Below, one piece after another: positions 6,218-61,653 of a stretch of DNA of 64,000 bases. Both the position numbers and the translations under genes were made by a program. The DNA is from a virus. The stretch's first letter is position 1; every line of letters begins with the position of its first letter. The stretch lies in IMG/VR virus record IMGVR_UViG_3300017769_000001, positions 62,001-126,000 of that record, one strand, 5' to 3'. The notes below the pieces were generated by a model, which worked only from the letters and a program-made list of their open reading frames with translations, was not told the origin of the DNA and ran no database searches.

Positions 6218-7636
6218 TCAGTTTACTTGAATTACGGTGACTTCGTCTTTCAGCCACTCGGGAATGGAGCCATTCCGAGTAACCACGACAATGAGGGGAA
6301 TCTCATGTTCGTAGACGTTTAGGATGTCGCCGTGCGACAGATATCCGTCAGTGAAGATGACAATGACGTTATAGGCATCATCGCCCCATTCCTGTTGGAA
6401 CAATTCTACCATATGGGACATCACTGTACCACCGCCACCCTTCAGCGATACTGCGGTCGGATCGTCCTCGTTTTCAGATGAAAGTTGCGCCAGCATAAAC
6501 GCCTTGCTGTCACATGAAGCCACGTCGATCTGCCAGTTGCCGATTTGATCAACAATGCCGTGTAGTTCGGTCATTGCTTCGGTCAAATCGGAATCCGACA
6601 TAGAACCAGACGTATCAACACCGAAGCCGACTCGAATCTTTTCACCTTCACGTGAAGGAAACACTACTTCGTCAGTGGATCGACGATTGTAGTACGCATA
6701 TGTCGGCTTATCGTCGCGAGTTCGTTCAAAGAAATTGGCGAACTGATCCCGCCAGTCTACTTTCGGCTCACTCATTTCGAGGAACTTTCGGATGATTCCC
6801 ATTTCAGCATCGCCAACACCCTTACCCATCTGAGCCTGAGTGGCTGCGGCTCGAATGGTTGACGCGATCTCTTGAGACGTTGCAGATGACGATCCGCCAT
6901 CGCCACTGTTGGATTCAGGAGGAAGATCGAAAGCTTGCTGCCCGTTCTTTCCACCGCCAGATCCACCAGATTTCGAACCACCATTTTTCTTCTGTTCTTC
7001 TTCGAGATCCTTATAGATCTCGTCCTCAGTCCATCCATCATACTTGCGATCAAAGCATATCTCAAATACATCCTTCGGAAGCAATTCGACCGATCCGGTT
7101 TTTGCTCCATTACGAATGATCGCATCCATTGACGAATGAATGTAGTAGTCACACGCCACATTGAAAAGCTTCGGGTCATACCCTGCTTCGGCTCCGCGCA
7201 TCCCGTGCTCGTAGAAGATATGCCATACCTCATGAACAATCGCGAAAGACCGATATGCGCCTTTCTGGAGGTATTCCATGAAGAAGATTGGATTGATTAT
7301 CACATAAAAGTTCGTACCGAGAGCCATCGCACCGGCTGTCGGGAGATCCAGAGACCAGTAGAACTTGCACTGAAATGCAAGTGCGCCGAAGAACTGACTG
7401 AATCCAGTAACCCGGAAAAGAACATCAGAAAGCTCTCGCTCCCATTCAGAGGGAACATGCTGCTTCGCGATTGTCTTGAGAGATTCGATTTTGGTGTCTT
7501 TACCGTTAACTTCGATAGTACCACCACCGATAGCCCCAGAAGGAAGATTCCGATACTTTTCGACCAAAGCCGAATATTTGCCGACTTCAGAATCAGGAAC
7601 CCACGAATAAGGCTTTGTGTTGAATGTATCGGACAT
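6218..7636 (-). CDS. Metallopeptidase-like / VWA domain protein (DUF2201 type)
   Basis: The 472-aa protein has a zincin-like motif HEVWH at residues 135-139, a Gly/Ser/Lys-rich linker (about 218-250), and a C-terminal von Willebrand A-like domain with MIDAS DTSGS at 341-345. This order matches bacterial VWA-like metallopeptidase proteins that pair with MoxR-type ATPases. The ATG at 7636 is chosen because TGAGGT precedes it and a consensus promoter lies at 7683-7711. The ATPase gene is next upstream, so the two probably form a remodelling complex. The substrate is unknown. Confidence 0.85.
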   Translation of the reverse strand: MSDTFNTKPYSWVPDSEVGKYSALVEKYRNLPSGAIGGGTIEVNGKDTKIESLKTIAKQHVPSEWERELSDVLFRVTGFSQFFGALAFQCKFYWSLDLPTAGAMALGTNFYVIINPIFFMEYLQKGAYRSFAIVHEVWHIFYEHGMRGAEAGYDPKLFNVACDYYIHSSMDAIIRNGAKTGSVELLPKDVFEICFDRKYDGWTEDEIYKDLEEEQKKNGGSKSGGSGGGKNGQQAFDLPPESNSGDGGSSSATSQEIASTIRAAATQAQMGKGVGDAEMGIIRKFLEMSEPKVDWRDQFANFFERTRDDKPTYAYYNRRSTDEVVFPSREGEKIRVGFGVDTSGSMSDSDLTEAMTELHGIVDQIGNWQIDVASCDSKAFMLAQLSSENEDDPTAVSLKGGGGTVMSHMVELFQQEWGDDAYNVIVIFTDGYLSHGDILNVYEHEIPLIVVVTRNGSIPEWLKDEVTVIQVN

Positions 7637-7682
7637 GATTACCTCACTTGAAACATTGAAACCATTTTTTCTTACGTTCATG

Positions 7683-7711
7683 ATAATACTGACACTCTTT
7701 CCTCGTGTCAA
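7683..7711 (-). promoter_or_regulatory. Consensus early sigma70 promoter
   Basis: On the minus strand TTGACA (7706-7711), a 17-bp spacer and TATTAT (7683-7688) give a near-perfect promoter 47 nt upstream of the VWA gene. Confidence 0.8.
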
Positions 7712-7813: not shown

Positions 7814-8968
7814 TTACTCGCTTGCCATTGCAGAAGTCCGATCCAGAACCTTCTTCAAACTGTCGCGAAGCTTGGAAAGCTTGCTGTTTGTCATGATCTG
7901 CATCAGAGCTTTCGGGTTTGCTCGCTTGATCGAGCGGAAAGCAACACCGGCAGACGAAACGTCGAATTCTTTGAAAATCGCGTTCAGATTGTCGATTGCT
8001 TCGTAGTCCGGGTTGTCTGCTTCCATCATATCAACCATGCGCATAGCGGTGGTGGAAATGATGATGAACATGATGCCGCGATCTGCGTTCGCGTCATTCG
8101 GAGCATTGTAGACGCCAGTCTTCTGAACTTCTTCGTAATCCGGCAACCAGCGTTCATTGCGCAGGAATCCGATGAAGTTGGAGCCAACCGAAGAGCCGAG
8201 GCACGACAAGATGCCCATTTCTTTCTCTGCCGGAGTCAGATACTGGTTAAAAAGAATCCGACTAACAGACTCGTAGTTGGCTGGGCAAGCAAACCCGTAC
8301 TCACCATCCAGAGCCTTTGAAACCAGATCAGAAGGCTTGAAGTTAACCCATCCAGCTACGGCGGGGTGGAGTTTTCTCTTCATCGCATAAGTGATGAAGT
8401 CTTCTGCGGTCGGCTCGATGAGGAAGTGAGCGCAGAAGCGGCGTGCCAGTGCTGGAACGATGCCCTTTGCACCAGTTTTGTCTTCTTTCAGGTTGCCGGC
8501 TGCGAGTACGAGAACACCTTCAGGAAGCTTCGTGCCGTTATGAATCGTGCGATCATGAACCAGACGATAACACGCATGTTGGTTCGGGATCGGGGCGTTT
8601 GCGAGTTCATCCAGAAGCAGAATACCGCACTCACCATCACGCGGGAACCACTGTGGAGTGGAGAACAGCATGTCCTTGATTTCAATACCGTCGACAACAT
8701 CAACAGTCGCCGGGTATGGGATGCCCTGAATGTCCGATTCCTGTTGAGCGCCAACCCGAACGTCCCAAATCTTGAACTTCGCATCGAATGCCTGTTCAAA
8801 CAGGTCTTTGACGTCAGCACCAATCTGATGTGTTACCGCCGACTTACCAACGCCGGGACTGGAGTGGAGCATCACAGCCTCGCCACATTTCTTGGTATCC
8901 GCCATTTCCTTGCAGATTGCCATGATGAAACTTTGCGCTTGGCTCAGGGATACTTTGGTCATTGCCAT
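7814..8968 (-). CDS. MoxR-type AAA+ ATPase, 384 aa
   Basis: Walker A SSPGVGKS at residues 36-43, Walker B LLLDE at 117-121, a sensor-1 Asn near 159 (LAAGN) and an arginine pair near 175-176 (ALARRF) define an AAA+ ATPase of the MoxR/YehL class. These enzymes use ATP to remodel a partner, usually a VWA-domain protein, and here that partner is encoded directly downstream. GAGG lies about 10 nt before the ATG; an in-frame ATG 6 nt later is an alternative. The rest of the protein is helical. Cytoplasmic. Confidence 0.88.
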   Translation of the reverse strand: MAMTKVSLSQAQSFIMAICKEMADTKKCGEAVMLHSSPGVGKSAVTHQIGADVKDLFEQAFDAKFKIWDVRVGAQQESDIQGIPYPATVDVVDGIEIKDMLFSTPQWFPRDGECGILLLDELANAPIPNQHACYRLVHDRTIHNGTKLPEGVLVLAAGNLKEDKTGAKGIVPALARRFCAHFLIEPTAEDFITYAMKRKLHPAVAGWVNFKPSDLVSKALDGEYGFACPANYESVSRILFNQYLTPAEKEMGILSCLGSSVGSNFIGFLRNERWLPDYEEVQKTGVYNAPNDANADRGIMFIIISTTAMRMVDMMEADNPDYEAIDNLNAIFKEFDVSSAGVAFRSIKRANPKALMQIMTNSKLSKLRDSLKKVLDRTSAMASE

Positions 8969-19027: not shown

Positions 19028-19057
19028 AACTTTTCCCCTTTCCAACATTGACAGCAC

Positions 19058-19686
19058 ACTTCGGAGAGCTGCCGCCTAACATAAGCGGCAACCCGAAATC
19101 AACTGTTTTGGCTAACTTGCTCGTTAACAGCTTGCCACACTGACACTATTTCCCGCCTATGAGATACACCAGACTGCCAGCGGGAATAGCCGATATAGTG
19201 ACAGTCTGGCTGAATTCCGCGTTTCAGCCTTCAGCGGATAGTCTCGAACCGGTTTTGTGTGTTAGGTCATTTACAAGGACACACGAACCCCTTGAACGTA
19301 AATTTACAGTTTGGGTGCATTGAAATCATACACTTACACTGAAGGCTGTTACCGCCTGAGAGTGACATTCTCCGGTTAAGAGACTATCCGCCAGCATGTA
19401 AGATCGACACCTTTTCAGGCGCAACTGTGCCACGCTAACACATTTGCCTTTACTCCGTTCCAGTTTGTTACCGGTGGCCGCAACTATAACAGAGCCAGAA
19501 TCATTAGGTTACTAAAAGCGCCAAAAACTCACTTTCACTTTCGCCGACATTCATGGCCTAGCAAGTACTAGCCGCACGTTCTGAGTGCGATACAGTCCTA
19601 GACGTAACTCCCCTTCGGGAATGGGATTCCACCGTAGTGATACCCGTTGTCTCCAAATTTTTAAAGAACGTTGGCGTTTCAGCCTG
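19058..19686 (-). ncRNA. Candidate structured leader RNA of the early transcripts
   Basis: About 630 nt without a plausible gene, downstream of the consensus promoter at 19693-19720. It is full of long complementary arms: 19225-19234 with 19339-19348 (10 bp perfect), 19234-19245 with 19380-19391 (12 bp perfect) extended by 19247-19252 with 19372-19377, 19169-19176 with 19202-19209 (8 bp), 19150-19156 with 19180-19186 and 19144-19149 with 19195-19200. The first and second, and the third and fourth, are interleaved, implying pseudoknots or alternative folds. A leader that controls antitermination or translation, or a stable RNA, are both possible. I recognise no known RNA family. Confidence 0.55.
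19653..19670 (-). promoter_or_regulatory. rRNA-type boxA, copy 1
   Basis: On the minus strand CGTTCTTTAAAAATTTGG, about 16 nt into the transcript from the promoter at 19693-19720. It resembles the boxA of bacterial rRNA leaders (CTCTTTAACAATTT in E. coli), the binding site of NusB/NusE in antitermination complexes. Confidence 0.65.
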
Positions 19687-19692
19687 TGAACC

Positions 19693-19720
19693 ATTATACA
19701 GCGTTGGTTCCCGTTGTCAA
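19693..19720 (-). promoter_or_regulatory. Consensus early promoter nearest the leader
   Basis: On the minus strand TTGACA (19715-19720), a 16-bp spacer and TATAAT (19693-19698): both hexamers are perfect. Confidence 0.85.
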
Positions 19721-19778
19721 GTTTCGTTTTAAAGTTTTTTCGGTTTCCCGAAAAATCGAATCTTGATTTTGCCGTTTC

Positions 19779-19808
19779 AGTCTATCAGACTTGATCTGTC
19801 GTCGTCAA
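19779..19808 (-). promoter_or_regulatory. Sigma70-like promoter in the early array
   Basis: On the minus strand TTGACG (19803-19808), 18 bp and TAGACT (19779-19784). Weaker than its neighbours. Confidence 0.45.
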
Positions 19809-19942
19809 TGCTTTTTTTGCCTTTTTGCGCGGTCTGTCGTTTGGATAACATGCCGAAACAGTACCCTATCCTAACCTGCCACCTGATAACTATTATGTAT
19901 TGTCAGGTAGTGCAAAACGACTGGCATTGATAATTTAAGCCT

Positions 19943-19971
19943 AGTCTAATCGAATGATCTGGCTATGTCAA
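19943..19971 (-). promoter_or_regulatory. Sigma70-like promoter in the early array
   Basis: On the minus strand TTGACA (19966-19971), 17 bp and TAGACT (19943-19948), the same -10 as the promoter at 19779. Confidence 0.6.
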
Positions 19972-19986
19972 GATCAAAACGAAACT

Positions 19987-20002
19987 CAATTTTTAAAGAA
20001 CG
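19987..20002 (-). promoter_or_regulatory. rRNA-type boxA, copy 2
   Basis: On the minus strand CGTTCTTTAAAAATTG, about 15 nt after the expected start of the promoter at 20024-20052, the same spacing as for copy 1. Confidence 0.6.
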
Positions 20003-20023
20003 GTGCCGTATTGGCATGGCTTC

Positions 20024-20052
20024 ACTTTACTGAAAGCCGTTTCCCTTGTCAA
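20024..20052 (-). promoter_or_regulatory. Sigma70-like promoter feeding boxA copy 2
   Basis: On the minus strand TTGACA (20047-20052), 17 bp and TAAAGT (20024-20029). Confidence 0.65.
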
Positions 20053-20105
20053 GCGATTTTTTGCTTAACTCCGCTGGCGTTGTTTGCCGCGTTTCCATGG
20101 TTCCC

Positions 20106-20133
20106 ATGATACGGATTTCAAAACGAAAGTCAA
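20106..20133 (-). promoter_or_regulatory. Most upstream promoter of the early array
   Basis: On the minus strand TTGACT (20128-20133), 16 bp and TATCAT (20106-20111). The -35 context TTGACTTTC matches the promoters at 947 and 10067. Confidence 0.6.
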
Positions 20134-20500
20134 AATTTTTATTTCCCTTTCAAATCAACAACTTACAACGATACGTCACGTAACTTATTGATTTTCTTAG
20201 AAAAAATAATTTTAAAATTTTGCGTTTTTTCTGTCCGGGGTTCTTGCTTCATTTATATGCAAATCGTGGGCGCGATTTTCTCAAAATTTTGTTTGGTGGT
20301 CAAATTAATTTTAGTTAATTTTTGTTAAGTCTTTGTTTTTATTAGGGATTTTCTTTTTCCTGTGGGTTATCCACTGGGGTAAATCTTGGTGTGTGGATAA
20401 GTGTGTAACTGTGGAAACCCTGTGTATAAGTGTGTTTTCGCGGGGGTTTCACACTACACTTCACACTACACTTCACACCACACTTCACACGAGAAGATTC
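20134..20500. other. Candidate replication origin: AT-rich DNA, DnaA boxes, iterons
   Basis: A stretch of about 200 bp very rich in A/T (20134-20345) adjoins a cluster of DnaA-box-like 9-mers: TTATCCACT (20367-20375), TTATCCACA on the minus strand (20392-20400) and TTATACACA on the minus strand (20421-20429). Three tandem 12-bp units of the TTCACACTACAC type plus a partial fourth follow (20448-20490). It lies between divergent transcription units. This is the layout of DnaA-dependent origins; the function is inference. Confidence 0.5.
20448..20490. repeat. 12-bp direct repeats (iteron-like)
   Basis: Units at 20448-20459, 20460-20471, 20472-20483 (one change) and a partial unit 20484-20490, beside the DnaA-like boxes. 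Confidence 0.75.
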
Positions 20501-20578
20501 CTCGAATAATCGGCGCTTCGCGCCGACCTCAAATCGTTGCACAGATGTCCTTCATGTGTCAGCAAAATGACGCTTCCT

Positions 20579-20586
20579 ACTAAATA
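20579..20586 (+). promoter_or_regulatory. T4-type late promoter
   Basis: ACTAAATA, 30 nt before the ATG at 20616. The window holds 22 such sites with core TAAATA, matching the T4 late consensus TATAAATA read by gp55. Confidence 0.65.
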
Positions 20587-20615
20587 AAGGGTATCAAACT
20601 AATACAAATTTTGCT

Positions 20616-21014
20616 ATGACTGATACGATAAAAGACGAATCACTCAAAGAGCGACTGATCATGGTGGAGCAACAACAAAGCCACCAGAAAGAAGTACTAC
20701 TTGAGATCAACGATACTCTCAGAGAAGTCGTCAAGACTCAGCACGTCTTGGCGAACCAGAGGAAAGATATTGACAGGTTGACGAAAGAGAACGAAGTCAT
20801 TCTCAAAAAGTTTCATGCTGCGGATATCGAGAATGCTGCTAGGAGTTCTCGTGATGAGTATACAACAAAGCTTGTGGAGTCTCTCAATAAAAAGGTAACT
20901 AACGATATCGAACCCCAGCAACAAAAAGTAAAGACTTACTTGAAGATTGCTGGAGTCGTATCTGGTGCTGGCTGGGCTCTTTTCTTGGCTACTTTGAAGT
21001 ATTGGGTTGGTTAG
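20616..21014 (+). CDS. Coiled-coil protein with C-terminal membrane anchor, 132 aa
   Basis: Begins MTDTIKDESLKERLIMVEQQ. Residues 8-100 are a charged coiled coil and residues 109-130 (LKIAGVVSGAGWALFLATLK) form one membrane span. This topology recalls XhlA-like small phage membrane proteins that assist holins, so a lysis role is possible but unproven. It has a late promoter but no clear Shine-Dalgarno sequence. Its stop overlaps a hairpin shared with the convergent gene. Confidence 0.65.
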   Translation: MTDTIKDESLKERLIMVEQQQSHQKEVLLEINDTLREVVKTQHVLANQRKDIDRLTKENEVILKKFHAADIENAARSSRDEYTTKLVESLNKKVTNDIEPQQQKVKTYLKIAGVVSGAGWALFLATLKYWVG

Positions 21015-21032
21015 GGGTTAACGCACCCCTAA
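21011..21032. terminator. Convergent hairpin, no U-tract
   Basis: An 8-bp stem (21011-21018 with 21025-21032) around TAACGC contains the stop codons of both converging genes. Terminator activity is uncertain. Confidence 0.4.
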
Positions 21033-21560
21033 CTGCCTGCGACGTCTCATAGCCTTCTTACGCTTCTTGACAGCACGACGTGTTGCTCCCACATCCCTTC
21101 TACGAGTCCTTGCTGCTTTTCTTGCTCTACGCTTCAAAGCGGTCTTACTCATCCCTGTAGTTCGAACGGCTTGGCGGGATCTTACTTGACGGGATCTTAC
21201 GCGGGAAACCTTACCAGAAGAAGATACTCGGCGTTTCAACTGCTCTTCAAGCTGTTCACACTCAGCTACAAGCAATTCTTCAAACCAACCCGACTCAGAC
21301 ACCAGATCACTGATATCATCGCCGTACGCTTCGCTGAGAGCCTCCTGAACCTCATCTTCACACACTTCGATAGAGAGGTCTTCGTTTACATAATGCCATA
21401 CGACTTCGCCCTCTTCTACGGTGGTCACATAATCAACCACATCGTCAGAAGTTTTTTCAAACTCGACGATGTGGTTTTTGATTTCAGAGTACTTCTCAAT
21501 CTCTACTTGGAAGAGTGGGTCATACTCACTCTCACTATAGAACATAACTTGTTGTGTCAT
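21018..21560 (-). CDS. Late protein with acidic N-terminus and very basic C-terminus, 180 aa
   Basis: Residues 1-110 are strongly acidic, residues 111-180 almost all Arg/Lys with short repeats (RVRSRQ / QVRSRQ, RRRDVGATRRAVKKRKK). A late promoter lies 27 nt upstream. Separate acidic and basic halves suggest a DNA-packing or head-internal protein, possibly processed during maturation, but no family is recognised. Its stop codon is within the convergent hairpin at 21011-21032. Confidence 0.65.
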   Translation of the reverse strand: MTQQVMFYSESEYDPLFQVEIEKYSEIKNHIVEFEKTSDDVVDYVTTVEEGEVVWHYVNEDLSIEVCEDEVQEALSEAYGDDISDLVSESGWFEELLVAECEQLEEQLKRRVSSSGKVSRVRSRQVRSRQAVRTTGMSKTALKRRARKAARTRRRDVGATRRAVKKRKKAMRRRRQLGVR

Positions 21561-30570: not shown

Positions 30571-31099
30571 CTTCTGGAACTTCGTCATAACCAAGCATAA
30601 TAGCATTAGTTTCCCGGTCGTCGTAAAGTCCCGATATATCGCCAGACGTCGTCAGATATGGAGCGTATCTGTTCAGATGGTAACTCAGATTTTCCAAGTC
30701 ATGATCACCTTCATAATGGTGTGCTATCACAAGATCAAATGAAGGATCGTGATCAACGGCTTCGTAGAGGTCTGCAATCATTTCGAAGTACTTCTCCATT
30801 GTCGGAGATTCATACTCGGCGATTAGACACCGCACACCGTCGACATCCTCAGAACGAAGTTTGAATCCAGAAAGGCGAACTGGCCCTTTGAATATCTTCA
30901 TCACTCCTTGTGGTTCATTTTCGTACACTTCGTCAACAACAGCAACAGGTACAGACAAATATTTGTCTTCTACAACTTCAGTAATCCCGTAATCTTCACA
31001 GAAGTTCCTGATAATCTCCTTGTCCTTCGTCTCCAAGTCCATCCCGTACACCAAGTACACTGGGAACGGGATTGCGTTCTCTTTCTCTGTATTTTTCAC
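30566..31099 (-). CDS. Hypothetical protein, 177 aa
   Basis: The GTG at 31099 is preferred because it overlaps the TGA of the preceding gene (GTGA) and has GGAGAC 6-7 nt upstream; an ATG at 31114 has no such site. The sequence (PFPVYLVYGMDLETKD; YEAVDHDPSFDLVIAHHYEG) looks alpha/beta and acidic. A 2H-phosphoesterase was considered, but the paired HxT/S motifs are missing. Function unknown. Confidence 0.65.
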   Translation of the reverse strand: MKNTEKENAIPFPVYLVYGMDLETKDKEIIRNFCEDYGITEVVEDKYLSVPVAVVDEVYENEPQGVMKIFKGPVRLSGFKLRSEDVDGVRCLIAEYESPTMEKYFEMIADLYEAVDHDPSFDLVIAHHYEGDHDLENLSYHLNRYAPYLTTSGDISGLYDDRETNAIMLGYDEVPEE

Positions 31100-32691
31100 G
31101 AACTGTCTCCACATGATCGTCGCCGAGCCATAACTGGCGATACTTTTTCTGATATCCCTTTATTTACTGGGAGTGTTGTATCGGATGGTGATTGTTTTCG
31201 ACTACCAAGTTTCTTCCGCCCATTGGTGGATTTACGCTTGGATTCGCTGTTAACCGCAGTAATAAGCTCTCGAATGTTTCTGATCTCTTCGCGCTTAACA
31301 ACACCAGATCCGAGCCGGAACAAGGGAGTTCGCATCGCACCTTCACCATGCATTTCTCCGGTCTTTTCCATAAGCCCAAACTTGATGGCTGCTGCTTTCA
31401 TCTTGTTAACCGTTTCTGTGGACACTCCAGTCCATGCTGCTGCAAACTTCTGCGAGTAGCAGGTACAGACTTCCTCCGTAGACCAAGTGGATTTCAAGCC
31501 AACCAGATCCAAGAACCCCTGTGCGGCTTTCTTTTGCCCTTTCGTCATATGAGTTATTTCTGATTTCAGTTCTGGTCTCTCAAAGTCAATGACACCAGCT
31601 TCAGACATCAACTTCATAGTCCATACGACAAACTCGGTCGGAGAAGGCTTTCTGTAGTTCTTTCCGTACCGAACGTTCATAAAGATTCTTGTCAGGTTAT
31701 AGTCGATCTTCTCGTCTGAGTTATGGTCTGAGAAATCTCTGACAATGAGACCCCAACCACCACCTTCGCGTCTGACCCAGCGGGATGACATCGAAGGATT
31801 GTTGTCAGTGTGGCCGGGGAGTAGTGACCTGAACGGGCGACCAAACATTTCCCCGTTCTTCGGTAGCGCGACTCCAACGTAAGATGCCAGTCGCTTCTGA
31901 ACGTCTTTGTTGAACAGAATACTGTTGAACATCTTTCCAGTCATTTCTCCACGACCGATGAAGATTGGATCCCCGGTGTATGTGATGTCTTCATAGCCGT
32001 GATTGGCTCCAATACCCTCGTACACACGCGAAAGAGAAGCAGAGGTCTCTGCTTCGATTACAGCAGACACATCGTCACCGGGTTCTTCCGGGATCTCTTC
32101 GTTCTTCTTTGCTGTTGATTTTGAACGTTTCGGTGTTGTCTGTTCCCTGTACTGACTAAGGCTTTCGATTTCCCGGACACCAGTCAAATGATTTTTCAGT
32201 TCCGACGGCAGTTCCGGTAATTTGTTGTCTCGTATTTGAGAAATGAAAGAGTCTAGGGAACCGCGCTGCATGTAGCGATTCCCGTCAGGAAGTATTGCGT
32301 ACCCCCCAACACCCAGAGAATCTATGGCATAAATGAAACCAACTTTTCGAACTACCTCGTTGTCTGGCTTGAAGTAGTAATGATGACCGTTGTTTAACGT
32401 TGACGCCGTCGCCTTTGTCTGGCACGTGTACTCATGAATTTTCCCAAAAGAAGCAAATGCTTGTTGGCCTTTGCTCAAATCGACATCGATTACGCTAAAT
32501 TGTCCTTCACAAGGAGCACCAATGAGCGCGTCCGGATTCTTCTTCCACCATCGCTTGACAAGACCAACATCAGAAGATGCGTTCTTGAAACCGTTCTTCG
32601 TTAATGGACTCTTGTCGCTTGGCTTGCACGGAAAAATCTTGATCCCAGCTTTGGCGTATTTTACTGCTATGTCGATGTATGATTCACTCAC
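31096..32691 (-). CDS. Primase-polymerase (PrimPol/AEP) domain protein
   Basis: The N-terminal 190 residues match the bifunctional DNA primase/polymerase family: AKAGIKIFPCKPSDKSPL, the metal-binding pair in VIDVDLSKG and the nucleotide-binding GHHYYFK. A charged linker and a second half of about 300 aa, with a helix-turn-helix-like region (AWTGVSTETVNKMKAAAIKF) and a basic tail, follow. These enzymes make primers and can extend DNA. The GTG at 32691 overlaps the stop before it; a TTG at 32721 is the alternative. Such a primase is unlike T4, which uses gp41/gp61. Confidence 0.8.
   Translation of the reverse strand: MSESYIDIAVKYAKAGIKIFPCKPSDKSPLTKNGFKNASSDVGLVKRWWKKNPDALIGAPCEGQFSVIDVDLSKGQQAFASFGKIHEYTCQTKATASTLNNGHHYYFKPDNEVVRKVGFIYAIDSLGVGGYAILPDGNRYMQRGSLDSFISQIRDNKLPELPSELKNHLTGVREIESLSQYREQTTPKRSKSTAKKNEEIPEEPGDDVSAVIEAETSASLSRVYEGIGANHGYEDITYTGDPIFIGRGEMTGKMFNSILFNKDVQKRLASYVGVALPKNGEMFGRPFRSLLPGHTDNNPSMSSRWVRREGGGWGLIVRDFSDHNSDEKIDYNLTRIFMNVRYGKNYRKPSPTEFVVWTMKLMSEAGVIDFERPELKSEITHMTKGQKKAAQGFLDLVGLKSTWSTEEVCTCYSQKFAAAWTGVSTETVNKMKAAAIKFGLMEKTGEMHGEGAMRTPLFRLGSGVVKREEIRNIRELITAVNSESKRKSTNGRKKLGSRKQSPSDTTLPVNKGISEKVSPVMARRRSCGDSS
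31161..31168 (-). promoter_or_regulatory. Late promoter inside the PrimPol 3' end
   Basis: AGTAAATA on the minus strand, 62 nt before the GTG at 31099. Confidence 0.45.
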
Positions 32692-32963
32692 CCCAGATAA
32701 CCATCCTTCGCATTGTTCCAAGCCTGCTTGTCAGTAAGGTAATAAAGACAGTTCGTTGACAAAGAACTGCCCACTTTCTTACGAAGCCTGCTCACTTCTA
32801 CTCTGATTATTTCCCGCGCTTCATTCTTATCTTCATCACTCCCGAATCTATAATCGATTGAATGATAAAGATTAATGAGATCGATCATTTTAGCAGTAGC
32901 CTGACCTATGGTCAATTTGTTTGATGGCTTCTGTAATCGATCTCTCATCCTGTCAGGACGCAT
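32688..32963 (-). CDS. Hypothetical protein, 91 aa
   Basis: Begins MRPDRMRDRLQKPSNKLTIG. Helical and basic, ending KQAWNNAKDGYLG. It overlaps both neighbours (RuvC-like upstream by 11 nt, PrimPol downstream by 4 nt), tying it to this DNA-metabolism operon. No domain recognised. Confidence 0.65.
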   Translation of the reverse strand: MRPDRMRDRLQKPSNKLTIGQATAKMIDLINLYHSIDYRFGSDEDKNEAREIIRVEVSRLRKKVGSSLSTNCLYYLTDKQAWNNAKDGYLG

Positions 32964-56426: not shown

Positions 56427-57953
56427 TCAGACAAAGATGCCTACCTCGTAGGCATCTTGTTCTTGATCATAGCTCACTTCACTCATCTTTTCGTACGCAC
56501 TTTCTTCATAGTCGCCAATCTGTTCAAGCAACAGCATCATCAGAACAGCAGCCATACACAAGTCATCCGTTTTACCGGATTCAGCGGCAAAGCTCCCTTT
56601 GTTCTTCACGAAGAATTTCAGCTCGTTTATCAGGTATGAACTTTTAATTGTGTATTTCTCAAGCTCAACCATATCCTTCAGACGCTGACACCCGTGTGGT
56701 TTTGTTTTGGTATTGGTTGGCATACCGAGCTTATTCGGATAATCAACGTGAGAAATAAACGTGGCACTGTCCAGAGCTTCTGAATCTGTGTTCTGAAGCA
56801 GGTTGATGACACCCATACCGATACTGTTATTCTCAACCGTGTAATAAACTTCAGCTGCACCCATACGGAAGCAGAGGTCGATTACGCTGATGATTGCTTT
56901 CACATAATGAGTTTGCGTCAGTGTGTTATTCCGATATTCGCCAACCTGAACGAAATTATCAACGTCGGTTATATGCATTGCGTGGTAGTCTTTACCAATA
57001 CCTTCGGATACGTCGATACTGATCGCAATATTCTTCCCTTTGAGATCCTTTTCCCACATGTAAAGGGAATCGTCAGGATAGAATATCGGGTCTTCTGATT
57101 TCATATCCTCCAGTATCTGGGAATTAATCAGAGTTCCCTTGTCGGAAATAAAATGGTTGCAGAATTCCTGAAGGAATTTCGTTAAACCGAATTTGGAAAT
57201 CATATCCTTTTTGAATTTTTCTGTACGTCCGGGAACTTCGTCGTATTTCACTTCAACAGGGAAGAAACCGTTTGTACCAGCCACAGCACCAAACCAGATA
57301 GACGAGAACAGGTCTCCAGAACCGTTCGGGGTTGATGTGATGATCAGTTTTACGTCGGCATCCTCACCTTCGGCAGTCAACGATGGCAACAGACCACCCC
57401 AGAACTCTTCAGCAACAGAAGGCTTTACGAACGCAAGCTCGTCGATGTAGATGATCTTTGGTGTGTTACCACGGAAGGTATTTTCTCGGGTCACCTGAGC
57501 TTCGATAGAACTGCCGTTCGTAAATGCCACAGAATACCTGTTGTACTCGATTACAGGAGGTTTTAGCCAGAAGGGAAGGTTCTCATAGGCAAACTTAAAA
57601 CGAGCCATGAGGTCTTTACAGTTAGCCAGCTTGTACGAAGTCACACCAACCTTCATATCCTGATTGAAGATCATTTCATGCAGCAGGTAACCAACCGTAC
57701 TGGTCGACTTACCAGTCTGACGCCCAGAAAGCAGACAGACGAAATCGTTGTTCTCGATCCCACGATAGAATCTCTTCTGGTATGGGCGGGGGTTAAATAA
57801 AACACGGCCACGCTGACCTTGCGTGTAAACGTAAGTCTTCAGGAAGTAATCAAGGTTATCTGCACAGCGAATCCATTCTTTCTCTTGGTCTTCTGTCAGA
57901 TCTTGATCGTCCTTCGGCTTCTTCACCGATAGTTGTTCGTGATCGTAATTCAT
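56427..57953 (-). CDS. 17: Terminase large subunit gp17-like
   Basis: The 508-aa protein has Walker A SGRQTGKST (76-84), Walker B IIYIDE (167-172), a coupling motif ITSTPNGSG, and an RNase H-fold nuclease with AISIDVSEG, YYTVENN and SGKTDDL acidic positions, as in T4 gp17 (610 aa). It packages DNA through the portal. GGAGG precedes the ATG at 57953. It is inverted relative to the tail genes on both sides and has its own late promoter. Confidence 0.94.
   Translation of the reverse strand: MNYDHEQLSVKKPKDDQDLTEDQEKEWIRCADNLDYFLKTYVYTQGQRGRVLFNPRPYQKRFYRGIENNDFVCLLSGRQTGKSTSTVGYLLHEMIFNQDMKVGVTSYKLANCKDLMARFKFAYENLPFWLKPPVIEYNRYSVAFTNGSSIEAQVTRENTFRGNTPKIIYIDELAFVKPSVAEEFWGGLLPSLTAEGEDADVKLIITSTPNGSGDLFSSIWFGAVAGTNGFFPVEVKYDEVPGRTEKFKKDMISKFGLTKFLQEFCNHFISDKGTLINSQILEDMKSEDPIFYPDDSLYMWEKDLKGKNIAISIDVSEGIGKDYHAMHITDVDNFVQVGEYRNNTLTQTHYVKAIISVIDLCFRMGAAEVYYTVENNSIGMGVINLLQNTDSEALDSATFISHVDYPNKLGMPTNTKTKPHGCQRLKDMVELEKYTIKSSYLINELKFFVKNKGSFAAESGKTDDLCMAAVLMMLLLEQIGDYEESAYEKMSEVSYDQEQDAYEVGIFV
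56434..56458. terminator. Bidirectional hairpin between the wedge operon and terminase
   Basis: Perfect 11-bp arms (56434-56444 and 56448-56458) around CTC, with AA and TT at the outer ends. It overlaps the last codons of the terminase gene, so it would act on both converging transcripts. Confidence 0.7.
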
Positions 57954-60357: not shown

Positions 60358-61653
60358 ATGGCAAAGTATATCGTTCACAAGTTATCGAAGAATATCAAGG
60401 CAACAACTCAGGACATCGAAAATGGTGTTTCTGGTAAGTTTGCTGATGCTTCTGTTATTGGTGCCTATTTTGAAAATGTTTCAACAGCTGCTCTCGAAGG
60501 CATTGGCGATATTGTCATGCTACGAACAAATCAGAATGCAACGGGTTATCTGAAATGCGATGGTTCCTTATTTCTTGACTCCGAGTACCCGGAACTTGCA
60601 GATCTCTTGAAGAGTAGAGTTGAACAAGGCGTCCACAATCCTTTCACAAGCCAATTGGTATCTGTATCGAATGCAACTGCATCCGACGCTGGAAAGCATA
60701 TTGCAATATCCCGAAACGACGAGTTTGTCGCAGTGACCAACGCGTTTGGCGGCGACCTTCTAGTTTATCAGACATCGGATTGGACATTGTTAAGTTCTAC
60801 GTTAGAGCCTGTTAATGCTGCTGTCAACGCCGTCGAGTTTTCTCCCACGCAGGATATCATGGTGTCAACCAGAAATGGACAGGACGTCACAACTTCAGGA
60901 TTCGCTGTTTACGACACAAACACATGGGCGAGAACCGTCTATAACTTCCCATCGGGATACGAAACAGCTGTTCCTATATATTCGTCGTTCAGTGGCGATG
61001 GTCGCTATCTTGCAATCACCATGGCACTTAACGATACCCTGATCTATGAGACTGAAAATTGGACGTTGGTTCACACATTAACGTCTGGCATCGTATCCCA
61101 GAGAGAATGTTCATACTCTCCAAATGGAATTTATCTGGCAGTCTGCGGCACTAACCCTAACTCCGTAGAAATATACGAAACCTCAGAGTGGACTTTGGTG
61201 GCTTCCGAGACTTACGCCAACGCGGTCGATGCTATTTCATTCTCTCCTGACGGAAGGGAGATCTTCGTATGCTATGGTAACTTACTACAACAATACAGGA
61301 TGGATGAGGGGGCATTTATTCCAGCAAGAATTTACACGGGGAATTACCCAAATTCCGTATCATACGCTCCGGATTCTTCGTATGTATTCACGTCATCAAC
61401 CACAGCACCTTATCTCAATGTGCTGTCGAATCAGGAATACTCCAATTCACTGCCGCAACCGCCAGCCGCTGCTCGTTATGTGAGGGTGTCTCCGAAAGGA
61501 AAGTACGTTGCTTATATCGAGAGTAATTACGGATTGCGAGTTCGTATGATTCAAGAAGACGTTCCTGCTGGTTATACCCGACTGCCAGACTTCCCGATAC
61601 AGAAGCAAGGAACAATAACATTACATCCGATGATCAAAGCCTCCCTGCAATAG
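60358..61653 (+). CDS. Collar plus beta-propeller tail protein, copy 1, 431 aa
   Basis: Residues 1-45 are the short N-domain shared with neighbours. Residues 50-85 (IGDIVMLRTNQNATGYLKCD...YPELADLL) resemble the phage tail collar motif GDI...CDG...YPEL. Residues 95-400 hold WD40-like blades, each with a YETxxWTL strand and an FSPDGR turn (SFSPDGREIFV, ECSYSPNGIYLAVC). The C-terminus (GTITLHPMIKA) returns to a collar-like strand. A receptor-binding or decorating tail part is likely. Confidence 0.7.
   Translation: MAKYIVHKLSKNIKATTQDIENGVSGKFADASVIGAYFENVSTAALEGIGDIVMLRTNQNATGYLKCDGSLFLDSEYPELADLLKSRVEQGVHNPFTSQLVSVSNATASDAGKHIAISRNDEFVAVTNAFGGDLLVYQTSDWTLLSSTLEPVNAAVNAVEFSPTQDIMVSTRNGQDVTTSGFAVYDTNTWARTVYNFPSGYETAVPIYSSFSGDGRYLAITMALNDTLIYETENWTLVHTLTSGIVSQRECSYSPNGIYLAVCGTNPNSVEIYETSEWTLVASETYANAVDAISFSPDGREIFVCYGNLLQQYRMDEGAFIPARIYTGNYPNSVSYAPDSSYVFTSSTTAPYLNVLSNQEYSNSLPQPPAAARYVRVSPKGKYVAYIESNYGLRVRMIQEDVPAGYTRLPDFPIQKQGTITLHPMIKASLQ

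Follow-up and report, generated by a model that had tools for sequence, protein, structure and literature searches.

The replication origin oriE of phage T4 has 12-nt iterons and apparently relies on an early promoter, and the early boxA of phage T7 is functional (PMC3016281; PMC3709561). The leaders of bacterial ribosomal RNA (rRNA; rrn) operons also contain boxA, whose consensus is GYTCTTTAANA (PMC5725501). Here we describe a locus that shares features with these systems. It lies in a 64,000-nt window (bases 62001–126000) of a 148,739-bp IMG/VR virus record, where a large gene-free region (19058–20615 of the window) holds a repeat array (at about 82.4 kb of the record), A/T-rich DNA, and a leader with tandem promoters and two boxA elements. 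This is probably the early-control region of a T4-like phage, and it is a possible replication origin. The architecture is real and is conserved in related phages; what the sequences suggest about the rrn-like leader is better supported than what they suggest about an origin. A first-pass annotation of the window had pointed to the gene-free region, correctly, and had proposed a DnaA-type origin there, missing the leader. The origin-like layout holds up, and its position is conserved in the relatives, but dependence on DnaA is not supported, as eight relatives lack the boxes.

The capsid gene of this virus is most similar to that of Alishewanella phage Slicko01 (56% identity), followed by those of T4-like phages. 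The record has 22 predicted tRNA genes and encodes a DnaB/gp41-type helicase. At the DNA level, the region has no relatives in the phage collection, and single-protein searches of IMG/VR retrieved none; relatives were gathered via alignments of the capsid, exonuclease, and scaffold proteins. This gave nine phages to compare: the window phage, Slicko01, and seven IMG/VR contigs (referred to below by G numbers). All nine have the same order of elements: a scaffold-family gene, a repeat array, A/T-rich DNA, and sigma-70 promoters.

The leader runs leftward at 19.0–20.1 kb of the window. Its features, all on the minus strand, are:

20106–20133, minus strand: promoter-like TTGACT-16-TATCAT
20024–20052, minus strand: promoter-like TTGACA-17-TAAAGT
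19991–20001, minus strand: boxA GTTCTTTAAAA, a perfect match to GYTCTTTAANA
19976–19986, minus strand: 5' arm of the boxA-proximal helix, with core AGTTTCGTTTT
19943–19971, minus strand: promoter-like TTGACA-17-TAGACT
19779–19808, minus strand: promoter-like TTGACG-18-TAGACT
19720–19730, minus strand: 3' helix arm, which ends at the next promoter
19693–19720, minus strand: promoter with perfect hexamers, TTGACA-16-TATAAT
19656–19673, minus strand: second boxA, within the 18-mer CGTTCTTTAAAAATTTGG, which is identical to the boxA of the Pseudomonas 16S-23S spacer
19030–19690, minus strand: leader RNA that precedes the early genes, untranslated and with a strong fold (661 nt, minimum free energy −225 kcal/mol, z −3.8 from 20 shuffles)
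19234–19391, minus strand: inner stem of 12 bp without mismatches, GAGACTATCCGC / GCGGATAGTCTC (arms at 19234–19245 and 19380–19391)

There are thus five promoter-like sites leftward of the array, one of them with perfect hexamers. We scanned the window phage and four relatives for promoter-like sites, and every one that has an exact TTGACA faces the early direction. Both boxA elements match the consensus perfectly, while only about 0.5 such matches are expected in the whole record. When we compared the 18-mer to bacterial genomes, most of the matches listed were in the 16S-23S spacers of Pseudomonas or Stutzerimonas, about 170–190 nt before the start of the 23S gene. It is present in all six of the Pseudomonas-group genomes that we searched, which were themselves reached via the 18-mer. 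The identity to the Pseudomonas spacer suggests that the host is Pseudomonas-like. Such boxes also occur outside this clade: among the matches listed for GYTCTTTAAMAATYTGG in IMG/VR contigs, which number 81, 35 are preceded by a strong promoter within 160 bp, as compared to 2.8% of random positions.

Complementary arms lie directly after boxA and directly before the next TTGACA in four phages: the window phage (AGTTTCGTTTT), Slicko01 (GTTTTAGTTTTCTGAAATAA), G007 (GGTTTGAGTTTTCTGAAATAAG), and G011 (AGTCTTTTTTAGTGT). The helix is significant in each of the four (p ≤ 0.0025); among 3000 random pairs of genomic sequences, 0.13% scored at least 11 and none scored at least 15. The arms differ in sequence between the four phages in a compensatory way: the best partner of every 5' arm is the 3' arm from the same phage. 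In the window phage, the RNA from boxA to the next promoter folds at z = −5.55. The insert between the arms holds a small open reading frame (ORF) in three relatives and is untranslated in the window. The leader RNA has no match in Rfam at the gathering score, and the weaker matches are at the level of chance.

Like an rRNA operon leader (PMC10250234), this leader has a strong promoter, a boxA, and a long helix formed by the sequences that flank an insert, and its boxA 18-mer is identical to that of the Pseudomonas 16S-23S spacer. Unlike an rRNA operon, it has no rRNA, and its helix arm begins just a few nucleotides past boxA. The T7 early leader (PMC3709561; also the T7-like contig L271) likewise has tandem strong sigma-70 promoters and a boxA before the early genes. 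In contrast to T7, this T4-like phage has two boxA units, a helix that closes ahead of the next promoter, and a leader that is long and structured, with a repeat array upstream. We searched the literature (including few subscription papers) and found no report of a boxA-helix module in T4-like phages, nor of an iteron array in such a setting.

Upstream of the leader are the A/T-rich DNA and the array:

20134–20360, no strand: A/T-rich segment (71.8% A+T), a candidate unwinding or UP-element region
20367–20375, plus strand: DnaA-like 9-mer TTATCCACT, one mismatch
20392–20406, plus strand: first repeat unit TGTGGATAAGTGTGT, which holds the consensus DnaA box TTATCCACA (minus strand, 20392–20400)
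20410–20418, minus strand: fourth near match GTTTCCACA, two mismatches
20421–20435, plus strand: second repeat unit TGTGTATAAGTGTGT, which holds the DnaA-like box TTATACACA (minus strand, 20421–20429)
20448–20490, minus strand: three iterons at 12-bp spacing (GTGTGAAGTGTA on the minus strand) and a fourth GTGTGAA (repeat excess p ~0.001)
20616–21014, plus strand: 132-amino-acid ORF without a family match, between the array and the landmark gene
21018–21560, minus strand: head-scaffold-family gene (phrog_1049, E = 2.7e-16), a conserved landmark upstream of the array

Most of what the first-pass annotation had described here is present: three DnaA-box-like 9-mers within 63 bp (TTATCCACA, TTATACACA, and TTATCCACT), and three iterons with the 12-bp-spaced core TTCACACTACACTTCACAC. 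The A/T-rich flank is more extreme than had been claimed, as it overlaps the record's single most A/T-rich 227-bp stretch (the record as a whole is 54.5% A+T). The region had also been said to lie between divergent transcription units, which is not the case: the flanking predicted genes run leftward on both sides, and the 132-amino-acid ORF is the sole rightward gene at the boundary.

We considered that these might be unrelated resemblances arising by chance in a biased, G/T-rich spacer, and the boxes are indeed embedded in a local, low-complexity GTGTG run. However, the three-box cluster is the only one in the 148.7-kb record, which has 38 matches to TTATCCACA with at most one mismatch. No such cluster arose in 150 simulated order-3 Markov genomes or in 2000 local simulations. 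With the stricter pattern TTWTNCACA, the record has five matches, two of them in the cluster, and a pair within 30 bp arose in just one of the 150 Markov genomes. Furthermore, the relatives hold arrays at the conserved position. We consider chance to be very improbable.

The arrays of the phages are built from different words: AAGTGTG in the window phage, TGTCCCAA in G007, AACGTCCT in G022, ACAAGACA in Slicko01, ATCTTGTC in G008, CGTAAC in G009, and ATACGTCA in G019. Copies run in both orientations. In most of the phages the arrays exceed dinucleotide shuffles, and the spacing is often 11–12 bp. The core word TTRTCC, which we considered as a universal iteron, is in most of the gaps but not all. 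The A/T content beside the array reaches a local maximum at several loci; the peak is in the top 0.4% in Slicko01 but only in the top 3.4% in G007. We also noticed the palindrome ACTGGTCTGACCAGT (with one central base) between the array and the first promoter in Slicko01 (L012 7944–7958) and G007 (L037 16790–16804); it was not seen in the window. CAAAGACTTA(A)CAAAAA occurs just downstream of the arrays in the window (20319–20335, minus strand) and in G022 (L042 2350–2365).

Could host DnaA bind the boxes and open the A/T-rich flank? As in a bacterial oriC, DnaA-like 9-mers adjoin an A/T-rich segment, which here is the A/T maximum. The two strong boxes fit the DnaA consensus, so host DnaA could bind them; they are clustered beyond chance, and arrays of TTATCCACA, likewise extended by CAC, are present in other viral contigs. 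But unlike oriC, the site has only two strong boxes, and both belong to a single 15-nt repeat, TGTGKATAAGTGTGT, whose two copies are 29 bp apart. As parts of a duplicated unit, they are not independent sites. DnaA boxes at the site are peculiar to the window phage: the equivalent gap in the other eight of the nine phages has none (with at most one mismatch), and their arrays use other repeats. A DnaA origin would be predicted to have boxes conserved across hosts with similar DnaA. Also, the phage encodes a replicative helicase of its own and lacks a gene for DnaA, and the site has no homology to Pseudomonas oriC. GC skew, which had been suggested as a check, does not single out the array at 82.4 kb of the record, as the cumulative extremes are at about 46 and 99 kb; third-position skew to the left and right of the array does not differ significantly (the intervals overlap). 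Because skew tracks gene direction here, it says little for or against an origin. Overall, the DnaA-origin reading is weakly supported, and we think that use of DnaA is unlikely.

Several related candidates were set aside. A captured host oriC gave only chance-level matches in the six Pseudomonas-group genomes. A phage DnaA and a plasmid-type Rep_3 initiator are both absent from the record, and the product of the scaffold gene, considered as a possible initiator, belongs to a head-scaffold family. A second pair of DnaA-like boxes, at 34.56 kb of the record, is inside an ORF. Separately, we noticed arrays of several CACTTATCCACA-type DnaA boxes in other viral contigs (L211 138–208 and L206 703–790).

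The nearest described counterpart of the array, as judged by layout, is T4 oriE: both have evenly spaced short direct repeats adjoining a host-type early promoter, and similar repeats were reported at syntenic regions of relatives (PMC3016281). Unlike oriE, the array follows a head-scaffold-family gene and has both direct and inverted copies, and it is accompanied by rrn-type boxA leaders and, in the window phage, by DnaA-like 9-mers. This layout makes an origin plausible. The array might instead be purely regulatory, with operators for a phage or host regulator that tune the early promoters, the A/T-rich DNA as an UP element, and replication beginning elsewhere or by recombination. The array is upstream of early promoters in every case, the site has no skew signal, and T4-like phages lean heavily on replication primed by transcripts and recombination (PMC3016281). 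However, in the window the array is about 235–260 bp from the nearest promoter-like site, and direct and inverted repeats beside the genome's A/T maximum are more typical of an origin. We view the purely regulatory role as a credible but less likely alternative.

We favor, with roughly even confidence, an early-control region that contains an iteron array specific to the phage, together with an rrn-like leader and possibly an origin of the T4 oriE type. We propose that host polymerase would start from the rrn-like promoters and that boxA would recruit the host NusB/S10 (Nus) complex. The untranslated leader and the short early genes would thereby be spared termination by Rho, as happens in rRNA operons and in the early leader of T7, and the helix might shield or process the leader. 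Less certainly, the array may provide sites for a phage-specific DNA-binding protein, and the array, the A/T-rich DNA, and an early promoter may together form an origin like oriE. The likeness to DnaA boxes would then be this lineage's version of the repeat and would not be a sign that DnaA is used.

Several observations weigh against this proposal. The array has no skew signature, whether cumulative or third-position. We identified no protein that would bind the iterons (there is no Rep_3), and the iterons of oriE itself have no proven role (PMC3016281). In G011 and G014 the excess of repeats is only marginal, and other stretches of the genome are repetitive too. As for the helix, the arm duplex of the window by itself (−19.2 kcal/mol) is within the range of shuffled arms, and when the simple helix test was applied to four other phages, two of them truncated, no clear helix emerged.

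A more ambitious idea, which we consider doubtful, is that the early region of this clade imitates the host's rRNA operon beside a diverging iteron-type origin, and so couples Nus-modified host polymerase to the initiation of replication. Its parts would be rrn-type promoters, a boxA identical to the host's, and a boxA-anchored leader-trailer helix around small genes or untranslated RNA. With these elements placed immediately downstream of an origin that diverges rapidly, a single site would serve both roles.

We also noticed a third perfect boxA, between tRNA-Gly and tRNA-Met (G000, record position 57615; L004 17615, minus strand), within a cluster of 19 tRNA genes. Upstream of that cluster, L004 17750–18600 (minus strand) contains words that resemble the T arms of tRNAs but has no tRNA call; these could be degenerate tRNAs or another RNA. 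Elsewhere in the window, 31096–32721 encodes a protein with a Prim-Pol domain (PF09250, E = 4.5e-21), and 60358–61653 encodes a protein with matches to Phage Tail Collar and to a WD40-like beta-propeller. The leftward neighboring ORFs at 6218–7711 and 7814–8968 look, from their sequences, like a putative VWA-type and ATPase-type pair.

The iterons of T4 oriE have no defined role, and this clade, with arrays that are conserved in position, divergent in sequence, and adjoin an A/T maximum, offers a comparative system for testing one. Judging from the leader, T4-like phages may also be able to use the host's rRNA antitermination machinery, as T7 does, with a helix in addition. If this is true, it would reveal how host polymerase stays processive on early RNA that is not translated during infection by a lytic phage.
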